DNA from: Chloracidobacterium sp. CP2_5A
Lineage (GTDB): Bacteria; Acidobacteriota; Blastocatellia; Chloracidobacteriales; Chloracidobacteriaceae
Assembly: GCA_002254845.1 (NCBI GenBank)
Contig: NKPT01000037.1
Span: 1 to 33,731 of the forward strand
Reading direction: 5' to 3'
Length of the DNA: 33,731 nt
The position numbers and the translations under genes were made by a program. Below the pieces are notes generated by a model. The model saw only the letters and a program-made list of their open reading frames with translations. It ran no database searches and was not told where the DNA came from. Below are positions 153-31,945 of the stretch, piece by piece. Within the stretch, counting starts at the first letter, position 1. Each line of letters starts with the position of its first letter.

Positions 153-1946
153 ATGTCCCTTCTCGCCCGTCTGTTCCGCGTCAAGTCGGTGGCTCGGATT
201 CAAGCTGATGCCGCGGCCGGCGGCGGAGACAGCGATGCCGGCGAAGCGCTGGCTAAAGAACTCACCGCATTTGACTTAACGGCGCTGGGCATTGCCGCCG
301 TGGTCGGGGCTGGAATTTTCTCGACGGTCGGCAACGCCGCCTACAGCGGCGGCCCGGCCGTATCGCTGCTTTTCATATTCACGGCCGTCGCCTGCGGCTT
401 TGCCGCGCTGTGTTACGCCGAGTTCGCCTCGATGATTCCCGTCGCCGGCTCGGCTTATACCTACGCTTACGCCAGCTTTGGCGAGCTTCTGGCCTGGATC
501 ATCGGCTGGGACCTGATCCTCGAATACGCCATCGGCAACATCGCGGTCGCCATTTCGTGGAGCGAGTACTTCTCAAACTTGCTCGCCGGCTGGGGTCTGC
601 CGATTCCGGCTTACTTTCGGATGGACTTTCTCACCGCCAAGCGCGGCTTTGACGCCGTGAGCGACTTGCTCCAACAGGGCAAAAGCCTTGAGCAAATCAG
701 CGCGCTGGAAGGATTCGCCGCGCAGGCGGTCGCCTATGAGGCGTGGCTCAACGCGCCGCGCCTGGGCAAGATTCCGATTGTCTGCAACCTGCCCGCGCTG
801 GGCATCGTGGCGCTCATCACGCTGCTGGTCTATGTCGGCATCCGCGAGTCCAAGCGCGTGTCAAACGCGATGGTGGTCTTCAAAGTGGCCGTCGTGCTGT
901 TTGTGATTGTCGTTGGCGCGTTTTATATCAAGCCGGAAAACTGGTCGCCCTTCGCGCCGAATGGCGCGGCCGGGGTGCTCAACGGCGTCGCGGCCGTTTT
1001 CTTCGCCTATATTGGGTTTGACGCCATTTCGACAACGGCCGAGGAATGCCGCGACGCGCAGCGCGATCTGCCGCGCGGGATCATCTATTCGCTCATCATT
1101 TGCACGGCGCTGTACGTGCTGGTCTCGCTCACGCTGACCGGCATGGTGCCATACACAAAGCTGCAAGTCGGCGACCCGATGGCCTTCGTCTTTGGGAAGG
1201 AGGGCGCGAGCCTGCCTATCGTCGAGCGCATCGTGGCCGTGAGCGCCGTCGTGGCGACCACCACCGTGCTGCTGGTTTTCCAAATCGGTCAGCCGCGCAT
1301 CTGGATGGCGATGTCGCGCGACGGGCTGCTTCCCAAGGTCTTTGCCCGCATACACCCGCGCTTCAAGACGCCGGGCTTCGCCACCATCGTGGCCGGCTTT
1401 GTGGTGGCGATTCCGTCCCTGTTTATGAACCTGACCGAAGTGACGGACCTCACCAGCATCGGCACGCTTTTCGCCTTCGCGCTGGTGTGCGGCGGCGTGC
1501 TCATTCTGGATCAGACCGCGCCGGCCGCTGAGCGGAAGTTTCGCGTGCCCTACGTCAATGCCAAGTATATCGTCCCGGCCGGCGCGGCTGTCGCGGCGCT
1601 GATCTTCGCGCTCTATCCGCCCGCGAACGCCGTGGCGCGCGAGTTTCTCACCGTCGCGCCGGCTCCAGGCGAAAGCTGGCTCGGCGCGGTTTCGCACAAG
1701 ATTCCGTTCGCGGTCTTCGCGCTGGGCGCGCTGGGGCTGACCGTCCTGTGTTTCCTCAAGAGCCTTTCGCTCATCCCGGTCTTGGGGTTGTTGATGTGCG
1801 GCTACTTGATGACGGAGTTGGGCGTCGTCAACTGGCTTCGTTTTTTGGGATGGCTGGCGGTCGGGCTCATCATCTACTTCAGCTATGGCTTCCGGCACAG
1901 CCGCCTCGCCGCCGAGACCGCCGCCGAAACCAAAGAGAACGCGTAA
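153..1946 (+). CDS. APC superfamily amino acid permease (cationic amino acid transporter-like)
   Basis: This 597-residue integral membrane protein belongs to the amino acid-polyamine-organocation superfamily and should carry amino acids across the inner membrane. The family signature GAGIF is at residues 52-56, following the Thr-Ala-Leu-Gly stretch of helix 1. A second conserved stretch, FFAYIGFDAIST followed by Thr-Ala-Glu-Glu, lies near the middle and is typical of the CAT/YfnA branch. About 12 or more hydrophobic helices are visible. A hydrophilic insert of roughly 60 residues (about 150-210) separates two early helices, and the C-terminus has extra helices, making the protein longer than the usual 450-500 residues. 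The ATG at 153 has only a weak ribosome site. The gene stands alone and converges on the DUF4350 gene. Substrate cannot be told from sequence; cationic amino acids are the best guess. Confidence 0.9.
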   Translation: MSLLARLFRVKSVARIQADAAAGGGDSDAGEALAKELTAFDLTALGIAAVVGAGIFSTVGNAAYSGGPAVSLLFIFTAVACGFAALCYAEFASMIPVAGSAYTYAYASFGELLAWIIGWDLILEYAIGNIAVAISWSEYFSNLLAGWGLPIPAYFRMDFLTAKRGFDAVSDLLQQGKSLEQISALEGFAAQAVAYEAWLNAPRLGKIPIVCNLPALGIVALITLLVYVGIRESKRVSNAMVVFKVAVVLFVIVVGAFYIKPENWSPFAPNGAAGVLNGVAAVFFAYIGFDAISTTAEECRDAQRDLPRGIIYSLIICTALYVLVSLTLTGMVPYTKLQVGDPMAFVFGKEGASLPIVERIVAVSAVVATTTVLLVFQIGQPRIWMAMSRDGLLPKVFARIHPRFKTPGFATIVAGFVVAIPSLFMNLTEVTDLTSIGTLFAFALVCGGVLILDQTAPAAERKFRVPYVNAKYIVPAGAAVAALIFALYPPANAVAREFLTVAPAPGESWLGAVSHKIPFAVFALGALGLTVLCFLKSLSLIPVLGLLMCGYLMTELGVVNWLRFLGWLAVGLIIYFSYGFRHSRLAAETAAETKENA

Positions 1947-16345: not shown

Positions 16346-17449
16346 TCAGAGGAATCGGCCAGGGATCGCCTCGCGCGCTTGGCGGAGCGCCTGCCGATCC
16401 CCCTCCCAGGCGAGCCGCGCTTGAGCCGTTTCAAAATCCAGCCACTCGTAGGCATCATGCTCGTCGGGCGACAAGCGTATGCAGTCGGCATCGGCCAGCG
16501 CGGCAAAAGCATGCTCACGGCTGAAGACGGGATGGGCGGCGGCCGGCGCGAGCCAGTCGGCGTCCGCCAAGTACGTTCGCGTCAGAGCCAAATCGTGTAA
16601 GCCAAGCGCAACGAGGCCGGTTTTTAAAAGCTCGCGCCGGGCCGCATCCAGCGGCGCTTCGCCAGCCTGGATGCGGCCGGTGATGAGCTGCCAGAAACCG
16701 CCGCGCGCGGCGACGCGTCGCAGCGCGAGGTACTCGCGGCGGCCAGCGCGCGTCCGGAAAACCACAACCTGCGCTGACGCCTGCGCCACTTCGCGCCGGA
16801 TCGCCTCCCGCTCAAACGTTTCGCTGAAACGCCGGGCGACCTGCCCGCCGACTTCCTCCAGCGAGGGCGTCAGGCCCGTCTCATGCGCGATGGACGTAAC
16901 AGCCTTATCCTGAATCCCGCATGGGATGATGCAGCTAAAGTCGCGCAGATCGGTTGTCACGTTGAGCGCGAAGCCGTGCGACGTGATCCAGCGCGAAATG
17001 TGGACGCCAAGCGCGGCAATTTTCCGCTCGCCCGCGACCCAGACGCCAGTCAGGCCCGCGACGCGCCCGGCCGCAACGCCGTACTCGCCGACCGCGCCGA
17101 TCAAAACCTCCTCAAGGTCGCGCATGTAGCGGCGAATGTCGCGCCGGTCAGGGTTGAGGTCGAGAATCGGATAGCCGACTAGTTGCCCCCAGCCGTGATA
17201 GGTCACATCCCCGCCGCGCCGCGTCTCGTGAACGCTCACGCCCCGACTCGCGAGGACAGTCGCCGGGACGACAATGTTGCGCGCTTCCGCCGCCCGCCCC
17301 AGCGTGATGACCGGCGGATGCTCCAGCAGCAGTAACATGTCGGGGATGTCGCCCGCGCGTCGCCAGGCGACAAGCTTTTCCTGAATTGCCAATCCAGCGG
17401 CGTAATCCACAACGCCAAGCGACCAGACTTCCAGCGGGCGAATCGGCAT
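16346..17449 (-). CDS. Octanoyltransferase LipB fused to a NUDIX-type domain
   Basis: Residues 1 to about 215 are LipB, which moves octanoyl from acyl carrier protein to lipoyl domains as the first step of lipoic acid synthesis. It carries RRGGDVTYHGWGQLVGYPI, the conserved Lys in ERKIAALGV (Lys143), SHGFALNV, and the catalytic Cys in PCGIQDKAVTSI (Cys177). From about residue 222 a NUDIX-like domain follows. Its box starts well (Gly258-x5-Glu264-x7-Arg272-Glu273-Leu274) but continues LKTG where LxEETG is expected, so the metal-binding Glu pair is missing and one residue is lost. The NUDIX part may be non-catalytic. The ATG at 17449 is chosen; a GTG six bases earlier is possible. nhaA ends just upstream (17462), so the genes are likely co-transcribed. 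No lipA is visible here. Confidence 0.92.
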   Translation of the reverse strand: MPIRPLEVWSLGVVDYAAGLAIQEKLVAWRRAGDIPDMLLLLEHPPVITLGRAAEARNIVVPATVLASRGVSVHETRRGGDVTYHGWGQLVGYPILDLNPDRRDIRRYMRDLEEVLIGAVGEYGVAAGRVAGLTGVWVAGERKIAALGVHISRWITSHGFALNVTTDLRDFSCIIPCGIQDKAVTSIAHETGLTPSLEEVGGQVARRFSETFEREAIRREVAQASAQVVVFRTRAGRREYLALRRVAARGGFWQLITGRIQAGEAPLDAARRELLKTGLVALGLHDLALTRTYLADADWLAPAAAHPVFSREHAFAALADADCIRLSPDEHDAYEWLDFETAQARLAWEGDRQALRQAREAIPGRFL

Positions 17450-17461
17450 GACCACAAGCGC

Positions 17462-28197: not shown

Positions 28198-29067
28198 TCA
28201 ATCAAACTTGCCGGTCAGGTCAGCGCCTTCGGGGATTTCAAGAATGTTCAGGTTCTCCGCCACCCATTCGTTGTGGCGATACTCAACCGGGTACTCCTTG
28301 CGGAGCGGAAAGCCGACCCAGCCTTCCGGGAGCAAAATGCGGCGCAGATCGGGATGGCCTTCAAACACAATGCCGAACATGTCGTACGCCTCGCGCTCCA
28401 GCCAGTTGGCGGCCGTCCAGATGTCGGACACGGTGTAAATGGGTTGGTCTTCCGGCAACTCGGCTTTGACGCGCAGCCGACGATTCTCAGGAATCGAATA
28501 GAGCTGATAGACGACTTCAAAGGCCTTGCGTTCGGGATAGTGCGCCGCCGTCACGTCCGTCAGCATGTCGAACCGAATGGCGGCGTCATAACGCAAATAC
28601 CAGAGCAGGTCGCGGGCGCGTTCCGGGACGACCCGGACAATCTGCTGGCCATTGCTCGTAACGGCTTCCTTGATGTCATCCTGAAAAGACGCCCGCAGCG
28701 CGGCGATAAAGGCGTCGTCCTTGATTTCGGCGTAGGCCGGCGCGACCTCTTTCTTGGCCGGAGCCTTGGCCGCCGCTTTGGCTGGCGCCTTGGCAGGCGC
28801 GGGCTTGGGCGCATCGCCGCCGTCGCCGGCCGCCTCGCGGGCCGCCTTCGCCGCCGCCGCCTTAGCCTTCGCCGCCGCGATTTTGGCCTCTTTGTCGGCG
28901 TCCGTCGGCGTGGCCTGAGCTGGCGCCGACTCAGCCGGCGCGGCCACGGATTCGCCGGCCGCCTTGGCGGCGGCGGCCTTGGCTTTGGCGGCCGCTACTT
29001 TCGCCTCGCGCTCGGCATCTGCAGCTGAAGGCTGCCCTTCCGGCGCCGGCTTCGTCTCATCGGACAT
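28198..29067 (-). CDS. NADH-quinone oxidoreductase subunit C with repetitive Ala/Lys extension
   Basis: NuoC is the 30-kDa subunit of the peripheral arm. Residues from about 120 to 289 are the normal subunit, with [60 protein letters not shown] and VEYRHNEW. The first ~115 residues are an unusual low-complexity part rich in Ala, Lys, Glu and Pro. A unit of about 22 residues built around [16 protein letters not shown] is present twice, followed by a [14 protein letters not shown]-type run. It could form a charged helix or a flexible tether. The ATG at 29067 has only a weak ribosome site. It is the first gene of this nuo set; nuoA and nuoB are not upstream. Confidence 0.94.
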
Positions 29068-29376: not shown

Positions 29377-31488
29377 CTACTTGGCCGCCGGCGAGCTATT
29401 CGCGCCCGCCGCCGCCGCGACCGCCACGCTGGCTGGCAACGGCTGAGGCGCGGCGCCATTGCCATTCGCAGCCGCTTTCTTGGAGCGACCAAGCTGCACC
29501 AGCTTCGTCTCCCCATTCTTGATGCCCAGGACTTTTTCCTTGAAGAGCTTTTCCATCATCCGCTTCTCTTCGGCAGCGGTCATCGGGACTTCTTCATCGC
29601 GCGGGCGAACCCGCGACGCATCTTCGGCATTGATGTTGAGCGTGTAGGGCGTATCCGCCAAAGCGACATTGCGCCCCTTGGCGTAGATTTCGTGCTTGCC
29701 ATGCTCCTTGTACCACTTCGCCACGGTCGCGTTCTTGTGCATATCCTCAATGATGTTCCGCCAGCCGACGCCGGTGTTGTAGGCGCAGAAGGAAATTTCG
29801 CCCTCCTGCGTGCCGTAGGGAATGATGCACATTTCCGTCCGGCGGAAGTCGTAGTTGAAGAGGTCCTGAAACCACATGCCGGCGATGAAGAGGAAGTTCC
29901 AGCGGTCGCGGCGGCGCTTTTCAATGTCCTCGCGCGTCCGGTTGCCTTTCACGCTGCCATAGTCGCGCCCGGAAATGCCGAGCGACTTGTCGAACTTTTC
30001 CATCAGCGACTTGAGCGTGAAGTGCGTCGGCGACTTGTAGGCGTCGTAGTTACGCAGCAGCGATAGCCCCATCATGAAGGACGAAAACGCCCGCCCGCGC
30101 CCGGCGTCCGTGATGGCCTGCATATCCTTGAGAAGTTGCGGCACATTGATGAACTCCGGCACTGGCACCATTTCCTTGGTTTCCTTATCAATCATCACCG
30201 CCGTGCCGACGCCGCAGTTAGGATGGCAGCCGCAGCTCAGGTGGCCGAACTGCGCTTCCGGACCGTGCGCCAAGTCGGCAAAGTCGGCGATGGTGCTCAT
30301 CACGGAGATGGGAAACCAGTCGCGGGTCGGCTCCGTGATGCCGACCTGCTCTTTGACATCATGCGCGAGGTGCGAAAGCGTGTACCGCTGACGCAGGCGG
30401 CGCTCGTCGGTAATGTCCTCATCGCGCCCGGTGAACGACACCGGCTGAAACGAAATGAAGGCGATCTTCTTCGGGTTATCGAGCGCGAAGCGAATGACCG
30501 GCGCGACTTGGTCATTCGTGACGCCGTTGACCAGCGTGACGACCAGCACGATTTCAACGCCCGCTTCGTGCAGGTTTTCAATCGCGCGCAGCTTCACGTC
30601 AAACAGGTTCCCGACCTGCCGGTGGCTGTTGGCGTCGTTGCCAATGCCGTCAAACTGAAGGTAAACGTAGCGCAGCCCGGCCTCGGCCGCTCTGCGGCAG
30701 AAGTCCTTGCTCTTGGCGAACTCAATGCCGTTGGTCGCGCACTGGACGCTGTTGTAGCCCAGATCGCGGGCATAGCGAATCGCCTCGAAGAAGTGGGGCG
30801 AAAGCGTCGGCTCGCCGCCCGAAAACTGCACTGACATCTGGCGGCGCGGCTTGATGCTAATCGCGTTGTCGAGAATTTCCTTCACTTCCTCAAGCGACAG
30901 CTCGTGAACAAAGCCGACTTGGTTAGCGTCCATAAAGCACGGATCGCACATCATGTTGCAGCGGTTGGTGAGATCAATCGTCAAGACTGAGCCGCGCCCG
31001 TGCTTGATGGAGCTTGTGCCGTGGTTGTGCAGCTTGGCGTCGTTGTGCGCGTCAATGTCGCGCCCCGGAAACTGCGCTTCAATGTGCGCGAGGAAGTTGG
31101 CATCTATCGCCATCAAGTCCTCGAATCGGCCATGGACGGGGCATTCCTTCTCCATCCAGACCTCGTCGCGCCCGGTCTCCGCATTGTGACGCTTGACAAT
31201 GTGGGCCTTGATTTCGCCAACGCGCTCATTGATAAGGATCGTGTAATCCGCTTCGCCGCTCAGAATCTTCTCGCGCGCCTCCTTGACACATTTCGGGCAA
31301 AGCGAGTCGGTCACGCGGGGCCAGCCAAGCGTGGGCTTTGTCTTCTGCCATGACTTGAGCATGGGCTTGTCTGACCACTTCGGGGTGAAGGAAGGCGCCG
31401 GGCGATGCTTATTGACCATCTGAATGGTTGTGAACAGCCCTCCCGCAATTTTCGACAACGCTTTTTCGGCGTGCTTAATGGGCTTCAT
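29377..31488 (-). CDS. Radical SAM protein of the Tes / membrane-spanning lipid synthase type
   Basis: The 703-residue protein has an N-terminal metal-binding module (LCPKC, Cys64 and Cys67; ECPVHG, Cys116). The radical SAM core follows: NRCNMMCDPCF (Cys177, Cys181, Cys184) for the SAM-binding [4Fe-4S] cluster, FSGGEPTLSPHF, and a barrel up to about residue 400. A second Cys group lies in LSCGCHPNCGVG (419, 421, 425), and further Cys in TEMCIIPYG and SFCAYNTG (554, 568). This order resembles the tetraether synthase Tes and its bacterial relatives, which join lipid tails by C-C bonds. That assignment is inference from motif layout. The tail after residue 670 is Ala/Asn/Pro rich and probably disordered. 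The ATG at 31488 is chosen as the first Met before continuous similarity, with AGGAGA upstream; the frame is open to 31710. Confidence 0.8.
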   Translation of the reverse strand: MKPIKHAEKALSKIAGGLFTTIQMVNKHRPAPSFTPKWSDKPMLKSWQKTKPTLGWPRVTDSLCPKCVKEAREKILSGEADYTILINERVGEIKAHIVKRHNAETGRDEVWMEKECPVHGRFEDLMAIDANFLAHIEAQFPGRDIDAHNDAKLHNHGTSSIKHGRGSVLTIDLTNRCNMMCDPCFMDANQVGFVHELSLEEVKEILDNAISIKPRRQMSVQFSGGEPTLSPHFFEAIRYARDLGYNSVQCATNGIEFAKSKDFCRRAAEAGLRYVYLQFDGIGNDANSHRQVGNLFDVKLRAIENLHEAGVEIVLVVTLVNGVTNDQVAPVIRFALDNPKKIAFISFQPVSFTGRDEDITDERRLRQRYTLSHLAHDVKEQVGITEPTRDWFPISVMSTIADFADLAHGPEAQFGHLSCGCHPNCGVGTAVMIDKETKEMVPVPEFINVPQLLKDMQAITDAGRGRAFSSFMMGLSLLRNYDAYKSPTHFTLKSLMEKFDKSLGISGRDYGSVKGNRTREDIEKRRRDRWNFLFIAGMWFQDLFNYDFRRTEMCIIPYGTQEGEISFCAYNTGVGWRNIIEDMHKNATVAKWYKEHGKHEIYAKGRNVALADTPYTLNINAEDASRVRPRDEEVPMTAAEEKRMMEKLFKEKVLGIKNGETKLVQLGRSKKAAANGNGAAPQPLPASVAVAAAAGANSSPAAK

Positions 31489-31945
31489 GAGTCCTGTGCT
31501 TCTCCTGTGTGGGTGTAGTGATTTCCCGATGATGAATTCCATTTCGGTTAGCGACTTTTGGCCGCGCCCGCCCGCAAGTCGGGCGCAATCCGCATCGCCA
31601 AGCGCTCCCAAGCCCAGGCGATGAGAGTCAGCTGCCTGGAAAGTCCGCCTAGGTCTAAGCGCGCCAAGCGTTTCTAATGACGCGCCCGCATCTTGTGGGC
31701 TGCCCTGCAAGGTGTCAAGACCAACCTGTGTAGTCCGTCTGTATGGGCCGTCAGAGCCGAAGCCCGGTCGGCCTGTCGCCCGTCGCCCAAGGGCGGCCAG
31801 CGACGGCGCGGGACATCGCGCTTGGCGGCGATTTCAACGACAACCGCGCCGCCTGACCGCCCGCGACGAAGGGTCGAGCCAGATTGGCAGGCGGAGCCTC
31901 GCTCGACCGCGTTTCCACAAAACATCCACAGGCGGCTGTAAATAA

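Follow-up and report, generated by a model that had tools for sequence, protein, structure and literature searches.

The closest well-described relative of the gene studied here is tetraether synthase (Tes, also named GDGT-MAS; MJ0619 of Methanocaldococcus jannaschii, PDB 7TOL and 7TOM), a radical S-adenosylmethionine (SAM) protein with four metal sites that joins isopropyl-ended chains through their terminal carbons. Mss of the bacterium Thermotoga maritima probably performs the same overall job, the tail-to-tail coupling of acyl chains, and models of it can reportedly be superposed on Tes (PMC13274423). Other radical SAM enzymes modify glycerol dialkyl glycerol tetraethers (GDGTs), namely Gms, which has a SPASM domain, and Grs, which has a single radical SAM cluster (PMC11186832). 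Tes homologues in Acidobacteria have already been proposed for a role in membrane-spanning lipids (PMC8941075, PMC10087280). Here we analysed a Tes-related gene at positions 29377-31488, on the minus strand, of a 33,731-nucleotide contig of Chloracidobacterium sp. CP2_5A (NKPT01000037.1; this whole stretch is termed the window). A sequence-only reading of the window, made without knowledge of its origin, had put the gene forward as a candidate membrane-spanning lipid synthase. Our comparison points to a clade of Tes-family proteins that lacks one Fe-S cluster and probably forms iso-diabolic acid.

Branched GDGTs, which are presumed to be built from iso-diabolic acid, serve as proxies for past temperature and pH, and their biological sources and biosynthesis are described as still poorly known (PMC13274423, PMC11868695, PMC12042123). 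Iso-diabolic acid is reported among the primary fatty acids of Chloracidobacterium, a genus with two chromosomes (PMC12816986), and in Pyrinomonas, which like Chloracidobacterium belongs to subdivision 4 (PMC4644332). In a survey covering seven subdivisions and 46 strains, the acid is reported from subdivisions 1, 3, 4 and 6 (PMC13274423), and the cultures listed elsewhere by this group belong to subdivisions 1, 3, 4, 6, 8, 10 and 23 (PMC5462960); combining the two, we infer that subdivisions 8, 10 and 23 were negative. The tails of iso-fatty acids and isoprenoids are described as structurally identical (Zeng et al., PMC8941075).

The window gene encodes a variant of the Tes family

The open reading frame (ORF) lies where the sequence-only reading had placed it and comprises 703 codons plus stop, from an ATG at 31488 to a stop at 29377. 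An alternative in-frame start, TTG, is found upstream at 31710; the ATG is favoured, because in the relatives L027 and L034 the frame opens just 0 and 2 codons ahead of the equivalent Met. Pfam matches of the product (29377-31488, minus strand) are the radical SAM core PF04055 (80 bits) and the N-terminal zinc ribbon PF23545 (44.5 bits). The top NCBIfam model is that of Tes, NF045702, with 318.8 bits and an E-value of 5.5e-95, which is below the cut-off of 450 bits. The equivalog threshold of at least 450 bits is missed throughout the genus as well (315-322 bits in 7/7 genomes), and with the TrsS model NF045646 the protein scores 207.6 bits, below the cut-off of 490. A match to NF045702 at 1e-20 or 1e-10 says little by itself, because of 14 control genomes those of Bacillus subtilis and Thermus composti match at the former level and all 14 at the latter. 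A search of PDB sequences returned M. jannaschii Tes (7tol) at the top with an E-value of 3e-62, followed by MoaA at 1.9e-7. The source draft genome of 3.41 Mb, from a photosynthetic acidobacterium, contains a gene for the FMO protein (PF02327, E-value 2.5e-86; 0/14 control genomes ring), and the closest named contig among the best 80 of 579 relatives comes from an uncultured Chloracidobacterium and is 95% identical.

Structure prediction with AlphaFold, based on 59 sequences of which nine are Tes-like, yielded a model with a mean predicted local distance difference test score (pLDDT) of 86.7 and a predicted template modelling score (pTM) of 0.87. Structural similarity search of this model using VIA-align revealed 7tom as the first hit, with a Z score of 41.8 and a root-mean-square deviation of 2.5 over 470/498 aligned residues, the next being MoaA with a Z score of 19.5 over 272 residues. 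Foldseek likewise retrieved Tes, with an E-value of 1.9e-34 and a template modelling score of 0.84 by target length. An earlier model built from 16 sequences of the clade alone (pLDDT 75.7) again had 7tom in first place, with a Z score of 32.4 over 472 residues. The VIA lists held no further PDB entry near Tes, an absence that excludes nothing. The predicted protein has the Tes fold over nearly its whole length, the C-terminal domain included.

Three metal sites are kept and one is lost

Residues were compared in an alignment of 70 rows (67 distinct, with three duplicate pairs), including 49 clade rows (46 distinct) and 12 rows of acidobacterial Tes-like proteins; L001 and L028, which represent the window again, were left out. 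A second alignment, overlapping the first, holds 50 clade rows and 9 acidobacterial Tes-like rows, and alignment A2 left out L014, L015 and L018 from among 61 reference sequences. Eleven of the 13 cysteines are invariant in 49/49 clade rows and likewise in 50/50 rows of the second alignment, so that the conservation of the cysteine motifs is far beyond chance. The motifs listed in the sequence-only reading (CxxC, ECPVHG, CxxxCxxC, CxCxxxC and two C-terminal cysteines) are all present, from C64 to C568, and they follow the order of Tes, except that the Tes auxiliary motif C73, C77 and C80 is absent, a point that reading did not mention. Of the four metal sites in Tes, the window protein lacks one, whereas the ligands of the others are kept.

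The zinc ribbon of PF23545 carries a rubredoxin-type site, C64xxC67...C116xxH119 with the ECPVHG motif (residues 64-119; positions 31132-31299, minus strand). These four ligands are kept in 49/49 clade rows and correspond to C9, C12, C33 and H36 of Tes, whose motif has been described as CX2C...CX2H (PMC9433317). The loop of this site is much longer in the clade, with 42 residues in 47 of the 50 clade rows, 43 in two and 48 in one, the window protein, compared to 20 residues in 9/9 acidobacterial Tes-like rows. At residues 152-159 (positions 31012-31035, minus strand), which correspond to the ligands C73/C77/C80 of the N-terminal auxiliary [4Fe-4S] cluster of Tes, the window protein has Lys/His/Ser instead. 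Cysteines occupy these columns in 0/49 clade rows and in 12/12 acidobacterial Tes-like rows. Two histidines in the region of the absent cluster, H154 and H156, are invariant within the clade. The radical SAM cluster motif CNMMCDPC (residues 177-184; positions 30937-30960, minus strand), with C177, C181 and C184, lies in the PF04055 core and is found in 49/49 rows.

Toward the C-terminus, the motif CGCHPNC (residues 419-425; positions 30214-30234, minus strand) contributes C419, C421 and C425, the last of which aligns with Tes C338. Together with the segment of residues 538-568 (positions 29785-29877, minus strand), it makes up the putative C-terminal auxiliary cluster site, where C554 and C568 match Tes C455 and C470, M538 matches the labile Met439 and Y558 matches Tyr459. 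All of these residues are kept in 49/49 clade rows, and those of the segment 538-568 also in 12/12 Tes-like rows; judged from this conservation, C425, C554 and C568 would bind the cluster. In Tes, the C-terminal cluster takes up the substrate radical and has Met439 as its labile ligand, and Tyr459 is described as lying beside the substrate (PMC9433317). M. jannaschii Tes has no counterparts of the cysteines C419 and C421, which are invariant in the clade, and the acidobacterial Tes-like proteins have Cys at 419 in 3/12 and at 421 in 8/12 rows.

The N-terminus is predicted to form an amphipathic helix (residues 3-26; positions 31411-31482, minus strand) within a block of pLDDT 90-97, which might contact the membrane. 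The hydrophobic moment of residues 1-18 is 0.55, a value reached in 0.4% of all 18-residue stretches in this protein. At the other end, the tail after C568 comprises 81-179 residues in the 50 clade rows, compared to 24-43 residues in the nine acidobacterial Tes-like proteins. The greater tail length is thus a trait of the clade as a whole, unlike the Ala-rich end: the disordered tail pointed out by the sequence-only reading does exist (residues 663-703, pLDDT below 50; positions 29380-29502, minus strand) and, not being conserved, says little.

Compared to Tes, the window protein shares the predicted whole-length fold, the radical SAM cluster, the rubredoxin-type ligands, the C-terminal site with the equivalents of Met439 and Tyr459 and its placement in the tree. 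It differs by the missing motif of the N-terminal auxiliary cluster, the loop of 42-48 residues in its clade against 20, the additional invariant C419 and C421, the N-terminal helix, an identity of about 30% and the score under the NF045702 cut-off. The acidobacterial Tes-like proteins are 33-36% identical to it (9 rows); they are its closest relatives outside the clade in the tree and have identical C-terminal site residues, whereas they retain the auxiliary cysteines, the 20-residue loop and a short C-terminal tail. Since two defining features fail, namely the curated cut-off and the N-terminal cluster, the window protein is classed as a variant of the Tes family and not as Tes proper.

The clade branches within the Tes group and is widespread in Acidobacteriota

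The tree and the approximately unbiased (AU) test were based on 31 rows, among them 13 of the 49 clade rows and 5 of the 6 Trs rows, without MoaA. The clade is monophyletic (100/100) and nested among Tes and Tes-like proteins, with the Trs-type proteins outside. A split that sets Tes and Tes-like proteins against the clade plus Trs was rejected by the AU test, this one split having been tested twice (p-AU 2.3e-4 and 7.6e-5). The stem of the clade is long, and the sole archaeal Tes row is itself a long branch; membership in the Tes group thus appears more secure than the exact sister group. Phylogenetic placement, which the sequence-only reading had named as a check, puts the protein in a clade of the Tes group and in no other radical SAM subfamily.

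TrsS-type proteins (NF045646) have homologous N-terminal and radical SAM parts and two relatives in the same genome, but they form a separate group in the tree. Among the three Tes/TrsS-like homologues of the genome, only the window protein retains the complete C-terminal set of Tes.

In the contig scan, which covered the best 80 of 579 relatives, all relatives are titled as Acidobacteria or their subgroups. Searches of plasmids for relatives in other phyla, with 6 records each, gave few and distant hits, four loci of which were used as outgroup. The clade is thus seen here only in Acidobacteriota, with other phyla barely searched and more distant members possibly lying beyond the best 80. Three loci on Halobacteria plasmids (L148, L149 and L151) encode TrsS-like radical SAM proteins, and in each of them a methyltransferase gene comes immediately after.

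Within the phylum, NF045702 matches at 1e-20 in 36/60 genomes and above its cut-off in 12/60. Its full-length scores form two groups, of 486-619 bits and 308-344 bits; the window protein falls in the lower one, along with 15 other proteins that are 50-79% identical to it. A profile built from sixteen clade proteins matches in 166/297 phylum genomes at 1e-60, and 143 of these reach 1e-200, the range of the clade. The clade occurs in 7/7 genomes of the genus and, at 1e-200, in 133/147 genomes of the window's class, or 96/99 of the better ones. By contrast, a class taken to be Holophagae has no profile match in 61 genomes at 1e-60; for this class the survey of strains implies that iso-diabolic acid is lacking. 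Many genomes in one family of the window's class (f3, with G025, G038, G141 and others) carry two clade copies scoring about 1250 and 1050 bits, which suggests an old duplication.

A probable iso-diabolic acid synthase

The window protein probably joins two iso-C15 acyl tails at their terminal carbons to give iso-diabolic acid (13,16-dimethyl octacosanedioic acid), a reading by analogy with Tes in which the product would be built in place on membrane lipids. As in Tes, SAM would be cleaved by the radical SAM cluster, and the resulting 5'-deoxyadenosyl radical would abstract a hydrogen at the terminus of one tail. The radical left on that carbon would then be held by bonding to one of the sulfurs in the C-terminal [4Fe-4S] cluster until a second SAM activates the second tail, whose attack on the held carbon would create the C-C bond. 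Such a Tes-like way of working is supported by the predicted fold, the residues and the descent of the protein, from which we infer the lipid substrate, the chemistry and an attachment to the membrane via the N-terminal helix.

The chemistry fits well: two 13-methyltetradecanoyl ends joined at their terminal carbons give exactly the 13,16-dimethyl C28 diacid. Tes likewise links isopropyl-ended chains by way of their terminal carbons, as is proposed for the window protein, whereas in diabolic acid the bond lies at the omega-1 carbon, as seen by labelling in Butyrivibrio and proposed for Thermotoga (PMC8788747). For Mss, omega-1 coupling to diabolic acid is thought to apply, compared to terminal-carbon coupling in iso-diabolic acid (PMC8788747, PMC4644332; the comparison is ours). 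The organism and the distribution of the clade agree too. The sequence-only reading had suggested checking the core lipids of the source organism for iso-diabolic acid; the source is a Chloracidobacterium, a genus reported to contain it (PMC12816986), and together with the placement in the Tes group this supports the candidate function in membrane-spanning lipid synthesis.

Several observations weigh against this assignment. The N-terminal auxiliary cluster is lost, and the NF045702 score is below the cut-off. The conservation of Met439 and Tyr459 is weaker evidence than it looks, because neither residue is essential in Tes, both being reported as dispensable (PMC9433317); it suggests the same site and does not prove the same reaction. 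The invariant C419 and C421 hint at altered surroundings of the C-terminal cluster. Gene and lipid agree at the level of subdivision or genus, not strain by strain, and the class names used in this comparison are inferred; in addition, 131/297 phylum genomes have no match to the clade profile at 1e-60. Solibacter usitatus is reported to have two Tes homologues and undetectable iso-diabolic acid (PMC10087280), and a Solibacteraceae metagenome-assembled genome (L111) carries the clade, so that presence of the clade may not always mean iso-diabolic acid. Finally, membrane-spanning lipids in Thermotoga are made by Mss, apparently a different enzyme, and another gene could serve here as well.

An enzyme acting on lipids in some other way, either with ether-linked chains to give branched tetraethers or by cross-linking, thiolation or methylation of tails, is unlikely but has a real chance. 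Tes itself has several products, macrocyclic archaeol, glycerol trialkyl glycerol tetraether and GDGT (PMC8941075, PMC9433317), and condensation of the Mss type is said to proceed alike with ester and ether bonds (PMC13274423). Edaphobacter aggregans is reported to contain both iso-diabolic acid and a branched GDGT, and one Tes homologue, 32% identical, was found in it; the surroundings of the C-terminal cluster altered by C419/C421 would also suit a changed reaction. Against these points, the residues named in the papers on Tes coupling are all retained. PF09989, which we take to be a domain of Ger/PlsA-type proteins, has no hit in the window's genome (0/1) and is found in the T. maritima control; ester-linked substrates are the simpler guess because of this missing match.

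It is rather unlikely that iso-diabolic acid is made here by another enzyme while the window protein does something else. One contender is encoded on contig C25 of the same genome, a Tes/TrsS-like homologue of 470-477 residues adjoining LGT (PF01790) and 4HBT (PF13279) genes, but it has Asp in place of C470, Ser in place of C455 (with an adjacent Cys, as in M. jannaschii Tes), and Val and Ile where Tes has Met439 and Tyr459. The homologue on contig C385 keeps the cysteines, but Gln and Phe stand at the positions of Met439 and Tyr459, and a methyltransferase gene is adjacent. The other contender would be a Thermotoga-type Mss, the T. maritima protein being the bacterial enzyme whose function was tested by expression (PMC11604127, PMC13274423). 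That protein is apparently no close homologue of Tes: the T. maritima control genome is negative for PF23545 and, at 1e-20, for NF045702, although at 1e-10 all 14 controls ring. Judged from such genome-wide profile matches, Mss looks like another branch than Tes, with a possible remote link, and the bacterial membrane-spanning lipid synthases, which the sequence-only reading had treated as one kind, may not be one family.

A Tes-fold enzyme with a non-lipid substrate, for instance a pterin or a peptide, is highly improbable. MJ0619 was once annotated in this way, and the Pfam ribbon PF23545 bears HMPTM in its name, which we assume to reflect the old pterin methylase annotation. Radical SAM proteins switch substrate easily, and the long stem of the clade implies much change. 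The model nevertheless matches Tes nearly end to end, with its C-terminal part (470/498 residues), no neighbour gene is shared across the clade among those of at least 90 codons (no search was made for shorter precursor peptides), and a pterin role of MJ0619 was, as reported by Lloyd et al., not confirmed (PMC9433317).

Genomic neighbourhood and other homologues

Genes of complex I adjoin the window gene, as the sequence-only reading had observed. Among 80 neighbourhoods of up to 7 kb on each side, taken from the best 80 of 579 relatives, homologues of these genes turn up in just L037 and L038, which are the nearest relatives; an arrangement this local tells little about function. The neighbourhood was also considered as a functional clue and set aside: the most widespread neighbour family, counting ORFs of at least 90 codons, occurs in 19/80 loci, and the common families look like housekeeping genes. 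One of the complex I genes of the window (28198-29067, minus strand) encodes a NuoC-like protein that is extended at its N-terminus by a repeated stretch rich in Ala and Lys; its Pfam domain begins only at residue 144.

Elsewhere in the window, positions 153-1946 (plus strand) encode a BcaP-like transporter of branched-chain amino acids (511 bits against a cut-off of 690). The tested Chloracidobacterium strains require branched-chain amino acids (PMC12816986), and those taken up by such a transporter would also supply iso-fatty acids. At 16346-17455 (minus strand), a LipB octanoyltransferase (residues 5-223; NF010925, 197.8 bits) is fused to a Nudix-like domain, residues 227-361 of which match a dihydroneopterin triphosphate diphosphatase model with 52 bits against a cut-off of 103.

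The homologue on contig C25 (L152:2780-6957), with its degraded C-terminal site, lies between the Lgt-like and 4HBT thioesterase genes, with an amine oxidase gene in the same row, which is possibly another lipid-related system. The idea that it is a selenoprotein was dropped, as the in-frame TGA codons fall outside its 470-residue ORF. The TrsS-like gene on contig C385 (L153:5157-7228), next to that for the SAM-dependent methyltransferase, is cut by the end of the contig, and its N-terminal ribbon is probably encoded on contig C381.

Implications for bacterial membrane-spanning lipids

Taken as a whole, the clade may represent a lineage-specific Tes branch of Acidobacteriota that dropped one Fe-S cluster, gained an N-terminal helix and changed its cysteine pattern, and that serves as the iso-diabolic acid synthase of mostly oxygen-tolerant bacteria, non-orthologous to Mss of the Thermotoga type. 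We put this broader proposal forward tentatively, at close to an even chance. The general idea of such a role for acidobacterial Tes homologues is already in print; what is new here is the cluster-less clade as a sharper, testable candidate. A literature search of titles and abstract openings, with subscription papers outside its coverage, found no description of an acidobacterial Tes clade without the N-terminal cluster.

If the proposal is true, two radical SAM branches make bacterial membrane-spanning lipids and differ in regiochemistry, the one joining terminal carbons and the other omega-1 carbons. The residues C425, C554, C568, M538, H154 and H156 are offered for mutation, and the clade is a natural variant for probing the purpose of the N-terminal auxiliary cluster in Tes. 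With a defined gene clade in hand, genomes and metagenomes could show which soil and hot-spring bacteria are able to carry out the first step.

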